NCBI RefSeq assembly: GCF_000620845.1
Contig: NZ_KK211189.1
Location: 2,077,878-2,141,877 of the forward strand
Length of the DNA: 64,000 bases
Source: Exiguobacterium marinum DSM 16307
Lineage (GTDB): Bacteria; Bacillota; Bacilli; Exiguobacteriales; Exiguobacteriaceae
Reading direction: 5' to 3'
The notes under the pieces are model-generated. The model saw only the letters and a list, made by a program, of their open reading frames with translations, was not told the DNA's origin and did no database searches. Below, piece by piece: positions 30,917 through 63,885 of the stretch (positions are counted from its first letter, which is position 1; each line of letters starts with the position of its first letter). Both the position numbers and the translations under genes were made by a program.

Positions 30917-30937
30917 AGATTCGCAACGTGCATTTTC

Positions 30938-31019
30938 GCCACATCCCTACGTCCGTGTGAACGGAACAGGTTCAAAGGGTTAGCGTATGCCTCTCAGCCA
31001 CATCATGTGACACCCCTTG
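30938..31019 (-). promoter_or_regulatory. TPP riboswitch (THI element)
   Basis: On the minus strand all hallmark segments appear in order: GGGGTG, GGCTGAGA, ACCCTTTGAACCTG and ACGTAGGGA. It precedes an intrinsic terminator and thiT-thiN. TPP binding would favour the terminator and lower both uptake and phosphorylation of thiamine. A TATAAT hexamer at 31052-31047 (overlapping the rpe stop) probably drives it, though no good -35 was found. Confidence 0.95.
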
Positions 31020-31047
31020 CGACAATATCTTGTTGTTCTATCGTTGA

Positions 31048-43715: not shown

Positions 43716-45407
43716 TTGGCTTATGATGGATTAATGACATATCGTGTCGTAAAAGAATTACAATCGCTCGTCGGAGGACGAGTCAACAAAGTACATCAAC
43801 CGTATTCACTCGACTTGATGCTACAGATTCGCTCGAATCGACAGAACGCGCAACTACTCATATCAGCAAACGCAATGTATGCCCGTCTCCAATTGACGGA
43901 TACACCGATTAAAAATCCGCAAGAACCACCGATGTTTTGCATGATGCTTCGTAAGCATATAGAAGGCGGATTCATCACGGCGGTCGAACAAATCGGACGG
44001 GACCGCGTCATCGTCATTTCGGTTCGCTCTCGTAATGAGCTCGGCGATGAAGAATCGAAGAAAGTATACATCGAACTGATGGGGCGCCACTCGAACGTCG
44101 TCTTGACGACGGAAGAGGGCAAGATTTTAGATGCAATCAAACATCTTCCCCCTTCACAAAATACGTACCGGACGATCATGCCAGGAAGTGACTATCTACT
44201 CCCGCCTGAACAAAACAAGTTTGATCCGTTGACAGAAATGACGGAAGGATTGAAGCGCATCGATTGGAATGCCGGTAAGTTGGATAAACAAATTGTCGCC
44301 ACGTTCGCAGGCGTCAGCCCTCAAATCGCTCAAGAAGTCGTCCATCTCACGAAGATGCCGAACCGTGATTCCTTGCAGCAAGCGTTCGAGAACGTTCTAC
44401 GTCAACTCGACGGACCATACGTCTTTCAACAACTCGCGAGTGGGAAAGAACGATTCGCTCCGATTGCGTTGACAGCTGGAGACATCGAAACCGAGGAAAC
44501 GTATGAATCGAGTAAAGAAGTGCTCGACCGTTTCTATTATGAAAAGGCGAACCGGGACCGCGTCAGACAACAAGCGCACGATGTCGAACGTCTCTTAAAA
44601 TCAGAACTCGAAAAGAATCAATTGAAACGCCGCCGCCTCTTGGATGATTTGAAAGCGACGGAGCGGGCGGATGAGTTACAAAAATACGGTGAGTTGTTGA
44701 CGACATATCTGTTCCAATTGGAGAAAGGGATGCGTGTTGCCGAAGTCGTTGATTATTATGACGAGAATGGTGCGACCCTCACGATCCCGCTCAACCCGCT
44801 CAAAACACCAAACGAGAATGCTCAGCAGTACTATAAAAAGTACAACAAGCTAAAAATCGCAAAGGTGGAAGTACAGAAGCAACTCGAACTAAACGATGCG
44901 GAAATCGAGTATTTAGAGACGCTCATCGCACAACTTGACGTCGCCTCCCCTTCCGACATTCTTGAGATTCGTGAAGAGCTCACTGAAGAAGGATACATTC
45001 GTCAAAAACGTCAAAAGAAAAAAGCGAATCCGAAAATTTCGCTTGAAGCGTACACGTCATCGACCGGCACGGAATTTTATGTCGGGAAGAACAATACGCA
45101 AAACGACCATTTGACGTTCAAGTTCGCACGACGTGATGAAATTTGGCTACACGTTAAAGATATCCCGGGCTCACACGTCATCATCCGTTCGACGGAACCG
45201 GATGAGACGACGCTTCTTGAAGCCGCATCAGTCGCCGCTTATTTCTCGAAAGCTCGTGCGTCAAGCGGCGTCCCTGTCGATTATACGCGCGCCCGCTTCG
45301 TGAAAAAACCGAGCGGTGCAAAACCAGGATTCGTCATCTATACGGATCAACAGACCGTCTACGTGACACCAGATGAACAAGTGATGAAGTCACTGAAACA
45401 GTCGTAA
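43716..45407 (+). CDS. rqcH: Rqc2 homolog RqcH (NFACT protein, YloA)
   Basis: Ribosome-associated quality control factor that adds alanine tails to stalled peptides on 50S subunits. The NFACT-N domain begins AYDGLMTYRVVKELQSLVGG and holds the conserved Asp-Arg pair in IGRDRVIV; a central coiled coil (about 270-430) and a C-terminal NFACT-R domain (FYVGKNNTQNDHLTFKFA, DIWLHVK-like EIWLHVKDIPGSHVII) follow. 563 aa. The start is TTG 43716: AAAGGTG is nine bases upstream and homologs begin at the equivalent residue (MSFDG). Divergent from gmk. Confidence 0.93.
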   Translation: MAYDGLMTYRVVKELQSLVGGRVNKVHQPYSLDLMLQIRSNRQNAQLLISANAMYARLQLTDTPIKNPQEPPMFCMMLRKHIEGGFITAVEQIGRDRVIVISVRSRNELGDEESKKVYIELMGRHSNVVLTTEEGKILDAIKHLPPSQNTYRTIMPGSDYLLPPEQNKFDPLTEMTEGLKRIDWNAGKLDKQIVATFAGVSPQIAQEVVHLTKMPNRDSLQQAFENVLRQLDGPYVFQQLASGKERFAPIALTAGDIETEETYESSKEVLDRFYYEKANRDRVRQQAHDVERLLKSELEKNQLKRRRLLDDLKATERADELQKYGELLTTYLFQLEKGMRVAEVVDYYDENGATLTIPLNPLKTPNENAQQYYKKYNKLKIAKVEVQKQLELNDAEIEYLETLIAQLDVASPSDILEIREELTEEGYIRQKRQKKKANPKISLEAYTSSTGTEFYVGKNNTQNDHLTFKFARRDEIWLHVKDIPGSHVIIRSTEPDETTLLEAASVAAYFSKARASSGVPVDYTRARFVKKPSGAKPGFVIYTDQQTVYVTPDEQVMKSLKQS

Positions 45408-45416
45408 ACAAGAAAA

Positions 45417-45440
45417 CCCGCCATGATGATGGCGGGAGTT
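45417..45440 (+). terminator. Intrinsic terminator after rqcH
   Basis: Perfect 8-bp stem CCCGCCAT/ATGGCGGG (45417-45424 with 45429-45436), followed by AGTTTGTT. The stem contains the first copy of a 14-nt direct repeat. Confidence 0.7.
45418..45431 (+). repeat. 14-nt direct repeat, copy 1
   Basis: CCGCCATGATGATG, identical to 45869-45882. The two copies bracket the structured RNA and the small ORF. Confidence 0.6.
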
Positions 45441-45463
45441 TGTTGACTAACATGAATAATATC

Positions 45464-45623
45464 GCTCGCCTTTCCGGCGCCCATGCTTTCCGCCGGCAAT
45501 CCCGGAGCCGCATCGCGACTTGGGTCGCTGCTGGGTCTCCGTTGGATTGCTTTCCTGCATGAGTCGGGGCGCCGTCGGGCGAGCAACGCAAACGGTCGTC
45601 ATCTGGCGGCCGTTTGTCTTTTT
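45464..45623 (+). ncRNA. Candidate structured small RNA (rod-like fold with own terminator)
   Basis: Positions 45464-45584 fold into one long irregular rod: GCTCGCC with GGCGAGC (ends), CGGCGCCC with GGGCGCCG, ATGC with GCAT, GCAATCC with GGATTGC, CGGAG with CTCCG, and GCGAC with GTCGC around apical loop TTGG (45520-45523). Three TTTCC segments (45471, 45487, 45551) fall in or at the edge of internal loops. A terminator (45589-45623) follows with no gap. Neither strand has a credible protein. The block is much more GC-rich than its surroundings. Identity unknown; the overall shape recalls 6S-type RNAs, but no central bubble was recognised. Strand is chosen from the terminator. Confidence 0.6.
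45589..45623 (+). terminator. Intrinsic terminator of the rod RNA
   Basis: Ten-bp stem CAAACGGTCG/CGGCCGTTTG (45589-45598 with 45607-45616, one G-U pair), then TCTTTTT. It has no U tract in the minus direction. Confidence 0.75.
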
Positions 45624-45734
45624 CTGAGGCATCGATGGCCGAAGAAAAAGCCCGGTACATACTTCGAATCGGTCCAAACGGGGAAAAGGAAGGGAAACGC
45701 CGAGCCCACCCGTCATCAAAAGGAGGAGTCCGAT

Positions 45735-45908
45735 ATGTACCGCGCCCATCCTGAGATCATCATCATAACATTTCTTCAATTTTGTGGGGTAGAACGCCTC
45801 AAGAAATCGAAACCTACAAAAAAAGACGAACCAGATCGCAAAATGCGATTTGGTTCGTCAACAGCCTGCCGCCATGATGATGAGCATAAAAATGTTTGGT
45901 CGTTCTAA
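45735..45908 (+). CDS. Small ORF, unrecognised (57 aa)
   Basis: Starts MYRAHPEIIIITFLQF and is lysine-rich in the middle (KKSKPTKKDEPDRK). An excellent AGGAGGAG site precedes the ATG at 45735 by 6 bases, which is the main reason to list it. Against it: no recognised family, ordinary hydrophobicity only at the start, and a strong minus-strand terminator (45818-45859) dictates many of its codons. Its 5' region (45624-45734) is purine-rich with no clear promoter. It may be a leader peptide or chance. Confidence 0.3.
   Translation: MYRAHPEIIIITFLQFCGVERLKKSKPTKKDEPDRKMRFGSSTACRHDDEHKNVWSF
45818..45859 (-). terminator. Strong minus-strand terminator
   Basis: Sixteen-bp stem (45825-45840 with 45844-45859, one G-U pair; ends GACGAACCA/TGGTTCGTC), 3-nt loop, then seven U on the minus strand. 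It would stop any transcript coming from the exporter gene or from an unseen minus-strand RNA between 45860 and 45955. Confidence 0.85.
45869..45882 (+). repeat. 14-nt direct repeat, copy 2
   Basis: CCGCCATGATGATG, identical to 45418-45431; here it is not part of a hairpin. Confidence 0.6.
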
Positions 45909-45910
45909 AT

Positions 45911-45940
45911 GTGGCCCACCATTTCTTGATGGTGGGCCAC
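45911..45940 (-). terminator. Hairpin after the exporter-like gene
   Basis: Perfect 12-bp stem GTGGCCCACCAT/ATGGTGGGCCAC (45911-45922 with 45929-45940), with only ATTT after it on the minus strand. It lies 15 bases past the stop at 45956; together with 45818-45859 it forms a tandem pair. Confidence 0.6.
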
Positions 45941-45955
45941 TAACGTATAGCTTGT

Positions 45956-46894
45956 TCACGCTTTTGGGTCATGCTTAAACGCCTCGAGCTGTTCATGATA
46001 ATCGAGCAAATGCCCATGTAAAATTTCTGAAACGGATAAATCTTCATGTGGAAGTTTGAAGAGCGAATAGGGCTTGTCACATGTATAAAGAATATCGTGA
46101 TGGTGTGCCAGTAAATATAAAAATTCGGATTCGAACGCTTGTCGTTCTTCCTCACTCATCATTAAAAGCGCTTCTCGATGTTCGGCTAAACTTTCTAGTA
46201 ACAATACGAGTTTGTCTTCAAGGTGAATCAATAATCGGTACTGTTTAATCGTCATATATTTCAACTTAACGTTCGTCACTTTCATATCCTCTTGAAGCAT
46301 CATATGCAACTCTTGATGTCCTAGAATACGGGCTCGCGTCTCCAATAGTTCAGCCGGTGAGCCGACGAGTTCGCGCCAATGATGAAATAGAAAGGATGAA
46401 GTCTTTCGTACCTCATTTAATAACCGATCTTCATAACGAGGCGGCAAAAACGCATAGTTGACGCCAAGTGAGACGAACACTCCGACCGCCGTCAATAACG
46501 AACGCGTCCATGCATAATGAAAGAAATCAGAAGTCGGACTTTCGAGCATCATGACGATGGCAAATGCCGCATATGTCGACATATGTGTCTTATCAAACGT
46601 CGTATTGAGCGTGAGGGCCACGATGACGGCCAATCCGATTGATAGCGGATTGACGCCGAATAAATAAACGATAAAGAGTCCGCACATGAGACCGACTACC
46701 GTTCCAAAGATTCGGCTGAATACAATATTTGAGGAACGTTTGACCGTCGGTTGCATCGCAACAACGGCTGCGATGGCCCCCATTCCAGAATAAATTCCAA
46801 ATACATACCATGAGATAGCGACGGTAATCGAAACGGCAATACCAGTCTTTAACGTACGAAGCCCGACTTTCGGGATGTATCGTTTTCCATTCAT
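45956..46894 (-). CDS. Aromatic acid exporter family membrane protein (ArAE_1-like)
   Basis: 312 aa. The N-terminal half carries about five to six hydrophobic segments (GIAVSITVAISWYVFGIYSG, VVGLMCGLFIVYLFGV, LSIGLAVIVALTLNTTF, AAFAIVMMLESPTS, LLTAVGVFVSLGVNYAFLPP); the C-terminal 150 residues are soluble and helical. This layout, with MGAIAAVVAMQPTVKRS near residue 40, is that of the aromatic-acid-exporter/DUF939 family. Substrate unknown. It overlaps the preceding DUF4097 gene by 4 bases. Confidence 0.75.
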   Translation of the reverse strand: MNGKRYIPKVGLRTLKTGIAVSITVAISWYVFGIYSGMGAIAAVVAMQPTVKRSSNIVFSRIFGTVVGLMCGLFIVYLFGVNPLSIGLAVIVALTLNTTFDKTHMSTYAAFAIVMMLESPTSDFFHYAWTRSLLTAVGVFVSLGVNYAFLPPRYEDRLLNEVRKTSSFLFHHWRELVGSPAELLETRARILGHQELHMMLQEDMKVTNVKLKYMTIKQYRLLIHLEDKLVLLLESLAEHREALLMMSEEERQAFESEFLYLLAHHHDILYTCDKPYSLFKLPHEDLSVSEILHGHLLDYHEQLEAFKHDPKA

Positions 46895-63608: not shown

Positions 63609-63885
63609 ACAAAAAAAACCAACCCATCCCTGATAGGGACGAGTTGGTTGACTCGCGGTACCACCCTACTAGTCTCACCTCAAATGAGACCGCTCTCGGT
63701 AACCGATAACGAGGTCAGGCGGACACGCTTACTCAAGTTCAGCGTGACAACTCATAGGGGATACCGATTCGAGTCTTTCTCTTAGGCTCTCACCGCCCCT
63801 AAGTCGCTTCGTAGGTATGACTCGATCGACGCGTCCTACTCAACGTGTTGATCATTTATCCATGTTGTTCTTCATTCTGTGTGAC
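63609..63885 (-). promoter_or_regulatory. T-box leader (Ile) of ileS
   Basis: Minus strand holds the invariant T-box AGGGTGGTACCGCG (63668-63654 region) just before a terminator with a 15-bp stem (63617-63631 with 63635-63649, two G-U pairs) and eight U. Stem I lies at about 63740-63840, with a candidate ATC isoleucine specifier at 63762-63760 (GGTATCCCC). Uncharged tRNA-Ile would favour antitermination. Confidence 0.93.

Follow-up and report, generated by a model that had tools for sequence, protein, structure and literature searches.

The imperfect inverted repeat of 121 nt at positions 45464-45584 (in the following called the rod), together with the terminator-like hairpin behind it, is probably the non-coding left end of a dead insertion sequence (IS) of the IS1182 family, and the rod appears to be at the same time one member of a mobile or copied family of palindromes which extends over the class Bacilli. 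All positions refer to the window, i.e., the whole stretch of 64,000 nucleotides from Exiguobacterium marinum DSM 16307 that was analysed. A wider formulation is put forward only tentatively: large, internally patterned palindromes of a class-wide family, recognised in the folded state by some protein of the host or of a mobile element, may have been recruited repeatedly into IS1182 leaders as a regulatory module.

Fold and sequence of the rod

Rod and terminator hairpin, when folded jointly, gave a minimum free energy of -90.1 kcal/mol, compared to a mean of -64.1 kcal/mol (sd 3.8) for shuffled sequences; this corresponds to z = -6.8, and 0 of 200 shuffles reached the value. The inverted repeat, which had been noted in a preliminary description of this DNA, was confirmed by the fold, and the three TTTCC segments mentioned there were found as three CTTTCC segments. 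The terminator-like hairpin (45589-45623, plus strand) and its T5 were likewise present, although the stem contains 13 pairs, not 10 as described; it is followed by TCTTTTT. No convincing protein is encoded at the rod, in agreement with the earlier statement. A search of Rfam, as had been recommended, yielded no family above gathering score on the rod and terminator of the window, and with loose thresholds only matches at chance level were obtained. On the rods of 13 loci no family was found at gathering scores, and none on the rods of six Bacilli loci in a loose search. A simple scan of positions 45300-45960 for sigma-70-like promoters found none. Elsewhere in the window, the Rfam search gave matches to a T-box leader (63632-63852, minus strand) and a TPP riboswitch (30927-31027, minus strand).

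The IS1182-family relic

A query of 321 bases, which included the rod, matched four further copies in the source genome, three near-full (93-97%) and one with an internal deletion, and the repeated block containing the rod measures 316 bp; the element is not single-copy there, contrary to what the window alone could show. Copies of the query were present in 18 of the 19 genomes of the genus. In three of the loci (L002, L003, L008) the left block, which ends at the equivalent of 45756, and the right block, which begins at 45764, are situated about 1.34 kb apart, and the gap encodes two transposase ORFs of IS1182 type. It follows that the window copy (45436-45868), made up of the rod, the terminator and some 430 bases around them, is an insertion sequence of the IS1182 family which has undergone an internal deletion. 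Its transposase is not intact, since about 1.34 kb is missing at the deletion junction (45757-45763, plus strand), and the element is a relic. When the L003 ORFs were compared with the model NF033551, scores of 183 and 247 bits were obtained over the two halves of the protein, each half being below the whole-protein cut-off of 270 bits; the Pfam domains DUF772 and DDE_Tnp_1_6 scored above cut-off in the same ORFs.

Comparison of the flanks of the IS copies delimited the left terminal inverted repeat at 45436-45451 (plus strand; GAGTTTGTTGACTAAC, or CAGCTTGTTGACTAAC in intact copies), and comparison of the copies placed the right one at 45853-45868 (minus strand; GTTCGTCAACAGCCTG). A right-end hairpin, recognised from the sequence and from the other copies, spans 45825-45859. 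At 45719-45737 (plus strand) the transposase gene still has its ribosome-binding site and its start codon (ATG at 45735), and intact copies continue with MYRAHPE. In the intact elements the transposase is split into two ORFs, which are joined at a conserved heptamer, A-AAA-AAG, immediately in front of the stop codon; this site is located around 2360-2375 in L003 and occurs also in L002, L008, L033 and L064. The heptamer would be compatible with programmed -1 frameshifting.

Insertion at the rqcH terminator

The sequence CCGCCATGATGATG is present on both sides of the window IS. The left copy of the duplicated target is the terminator stem-loop of rqcH (CCGCCATGATGATGGCGG, 45418-45435), as judged from the repeat to the right of the IS and from the empty site in sister genomes; of the right copy, CCGCCATGATGATG is preserved at 45869-45882 and the remainder has decayed. 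Whole terminator stem-loops were found duplicated at the insertions in L002, L003, L004, L008 and L030 as well as in the window. Empty sites were available from five sister genomes (G012, G002, G016, G003, G006), in which one terminator stands behind rqcH and nothing has been inserted. The element (45436-45868) inserted into the rqcH terminator, the stem-loop of which was duplicated in the process. Duplication of the stem-loop is one of the routes which were modelled for the stem-loop-targeting IS1272 of the IS1182 family (PMC5678879).

Among the regions downstream of rqcH in other Exiguobacterium genomes (L353-L362), those of one clade contain inverted pairs of rods, which occupy a common intergenic site and are oriented in two opposite ways; in G009 and G017 hybrid deletions have fused the halves of the two rods at this place.

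Leader of the insertion sequence

In 8 of 8 copies of the IS clade the ATG of the transposase lies 292-294 nt from the terminal repeat, and a third hairpin accompanies the rod and the terminator-like hairpin in each of the eight left ends. Thus, the terminator belongs to the IS, being kept with the rod in all eight leaders; it is not the rod's own, as had been supposed before, and rods elsewhere occur without it. The third hairpin (CTTTTTCTGAGGC...GGCCGAAGAAAAAG, 45618-45650, plus strand) overlaps the T run and, in the IS leader, could form in place of the terminator tail. Pairs of copies with 79-84% identity in the transposase DNA show 91-98% identity in the rod, and the rest of the leader has diverged, as seen in an ungapped comparison which gives a lower bound for the identity of the leader.

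In several lineages of IS1182 a rod lies between the left end and the transposase gene. A rod on the same strand was found in 4 of 40 IS1182 left ends that were fetched; the rod is therefore not a fixed component of every IS1182 element. In some copies it is located 101-107 bp upstream of the transposase, and in the lineages seen all IS-borne rods are on the transposase strand. L162 and L175 are close IS1182 relatives, the former without and the latter with a rod, joined at a shared GCA; a rod has either entered an IS here or been deleted from one. On plasmids of Priestia, units of about 335 bp consist of IS1182-like ends around a rod. In L215 (7394-7825) part of the start of an IS1182 transposase lies between two direct rods, as if an IS had inserted into a rod and duplicated it, and insertions of this type could yield tandem copies. 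IS1182 is linked to the rods in several ways but leaves the solo copies unexplained.

The rod is most likely a mobile DNA palindrome which was captured by the leaders of insertion sequences, probably independently in the different lineages. The leader hairpins of IS10 and IS200 shield the transposase from transcription and translation which enter from outside. Rod and terminator of the IS1182 leaders probably have a similar effect, in that transcription and translation from outside would be stopped ahead of the transposase.

Distribution of the rods

With the covariance model R1, rods were detected in 35 of 38 genomes of the Exiguobacterium family (order) and in 92 of 399 sampled genomes of Bacilli, representing 28 of 145 genera. 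Twelve rod-bearing genomes were searched more deeply and contained from 2 up to at least 115 copies each, three of them reaching at least 90-115; 150 candidates were scored per genome, so the high counts are minimum values. In a Bacillota-wide sample of 398 genomes, model R2 matched five, namely the source genome and other Bacilli (four in all) and a fifth with a weak match; the family is almost absent outside Bacilli. The consensus pattern was found in Peribacillus, Neobacillus, Lysinibacillus, Sporosarcina, Oceanobacillus, Psychrobacillus, Halobacillus and others, and similar sequences were present on 14 plasmids of Bacillales. Two matches carried the labels Arthrobacter and Pseudomonas; these records are probably mislabelled. 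A search of phages gave no rod match.

Rods occur sometimes in inverted pairs, and in Peribacillus frigoritolerans (L246, 4661-5127) three tandem rods are spaced at 185 bp. No clean short target duplication was seen at solo copies, and a comparison of plasmids for empty sites of solo rods gave no informative pair. On plasmids of Priestia megaterium, two annotated hypothetical proteins, WP_081732889.1 (L315, 1416-1604) and WP_205664564.1 (L317, 1467-1604), overlap rods; both are probably spurious genes.

Covariation and conserved loop letters

In an alignment of 20 diverse rods, the 26 pairs of the structure were 91.5% paired. Double-sided changes occurred in 15 pairs, compared to 10.4 in shuffles, and in 88 cells, compared to 30.7 in shuffles and 18-35 when the structure was slid by up to 3 columns; since the structure had been derived from the same alignment, the test favours it over the slid versions. 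The covariation analysis which had been proposed earlier thus showed helices covarying beyond the shuffles. Of the claim that an undescribed element is present, a conserved and covarying structure without an Rfam family stands; the free-standing small RNA does not. Around the bulges and internal loops the letters GCTTTCC, GAGCC, GGGTCTC and GGAGTC are fixed, while the helices vary freely, which suggests specific recognition and not a palindrome maintained by arm correction alone. Solo rods may behave like repetitive extragenic palindromes, which are read by a protein as a folded hairpin or cruciform.

A helix under selection as RNA on one strand usually accepts G-U much more readily than A-C. 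Among 79 non-redundant rods, 44 G-U cells and 35 A-C cells were counted after exclusion of the invariant pair (p 0.37, in a comparison without positive control); the excluded U-G pair was invariant in 76 of the 79 rods. The rods are intergenic and favour the 3' ends of genes. For 72 rods with callable neighbours, convergent gaps were more frequent and divergent gaps less frequent than expected (p 0.003 each), and between tandem genes 31 rods lay on the opposite and 18 on the same strand, which is not significant (p 0.085); all these values are based on ORF-based gene calls. Rods elsewhere lack the terminator of the IS and occur in both orientations relative to the neighbouring genes. Intergenic placement, preference for 3' ends, lack of a fixed strand and lack of a clear G-U excess are more easily reconciled with a DNA palindrome than with an RNA gene.

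Alternative explanations

Among the alternatives, a rod that acts as RNA, i.e., as a hairpin recognised by a protein or RNase in leaders and at 3' ends, with a role in mRNA stabilisation, processing or attenuation, is considered rather unlikely. The conservation of internal-loop letters inside covarying helices and the preference for 3' ends of genes would agree with it. The common transposase strand of the rods in IS leaders and the invariant U-G pair are compatible with an RNA role in the leader and count against our preferred explanation of a DNA palindrome. The strand relative to neighbouring genes, however, is not fixed (31 opposite and 18 same), and G-U is not significantly commoner than A-C.

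It appears quite improbable that the rod is a functionless, self-maintaining palindrome whose arms are kept complementary by template switching during replication (arm correction). Such a process could produce double-sided changes in the DNA that show no G-U bias, and the hybrid deletions which sister genomes have at the rqcH locus point in the same direction; but arm correction would also remove the asymmetric bulges and the loop letters, and these are instead the best conserved part across many genera.

Mobilisation of the rods as REP/REPIN-like elements by a RAYT (Y1 HUH transposase) is very doubtful. Imperfect palindromes, intergenic position, high copy number and occasional inverted pairs would be expected of such elements, and Y1 transposases, many of them of RAYT length, occur in 13 of 18 rod-rich genomes. 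Y1 genes are absent, however, from the source genome and from 20 of the 38 genomes of the Exiguobacterium family, yet 35 have rods; none of 30 Y1 loci of this family contains a rod, no rod is situated within 1.5 kb of any full-length RAYT, and the rod units measure 80-130 nt or longer, not 21-65 nt. RAYT mobilisation was tested twice and remained unsupported, in view of the missing Y1 genes and the lack of rod adjacency.

The gene for a trans-acting small RNA, with exposed UUUCC loops for pairing with Shine-Dalgarno sequences, which had been the original proposal, can hardly be upheld: the strong fold, the terminator hairpin and the lack of both an Rfam match and a protein speak for it, but the element is part of a transposon end, is multi-copy in the source genome, shows no sigma-70-like site between 45300 and 45960 and no strand signature (44 G-U and 35 A-C cells are not a significant excess), other rods lie in either orientation and without terminator, TTTCC is invariant in copies of either orientation and of unrelated contexts, and in the consensus structure GGAG pairs with some of the letters of the 5' TTTCC.

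Relation to known elements and significance

The window IS clade resembles the IS1182 family, such as staphylococcal IS1272, in its DUF772 and DDE transposase, its terminal inverted repeats and its insertion at terminator stem-loops. It differs in the rod and terminator between left end and transposase, in the split of the transposase at the conserved A-AAA-AAG, and in the target stem-loop, which is duplicated and not replaced. Bacterial MITEs (bcr1, RUP, NEMIS, ERIC) are short, dispersed and non-coding, and either derive from IS ends or ride on them; the window copy resembles them in being an IS1182 derivative without transposase. Solo rods, in contrast, are without IS1182 termini or known target duplications.

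Like REP, BIME and REPIN sequences, the rods are high-copy, intergenic, imperfect palindromes near the 3' ends of genes, some of them in inverted pairs. They are several times larger, however, are conserved over a whole class and possess fixed letters in the internal loops, and unlike REP and REPIN they have neither a GTAG/GTGG tag among the conserved columns nor an adjacent RAYT. In B. halodurans, an intergenic stem-loop family of 74 bp with 36 copies, Bhal-1, was described (Petrillo 2008, PMC2267715). Compared by its description only, this family of a Bacillus-group genome resembles the rods, and Bhal-1 could be a local instance of the rod family. A literature search by concept and by literal sequence, which covered subscription journals only to a small extent, found no paper naming the family. 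Thus, the dispersed palindrome as a kind is already known, and the rod family itself looks new; the sources searched contain, for Bacilli, no description of repetitive extragenic palindromes that are as large, as numerous and as widely distributed.

The family explains spurious hypothetical proteins, such as the two which overlap rods on Priestia plasmids, and without its context individual rods would be mistaken, copy by copy, for novel small RNAs. The fixed loop letters, set in helices that covary freely, imply that the rod is recognised specifically; it should therefore be possible to find a factor which binds it and an enzyme which mobilises it.
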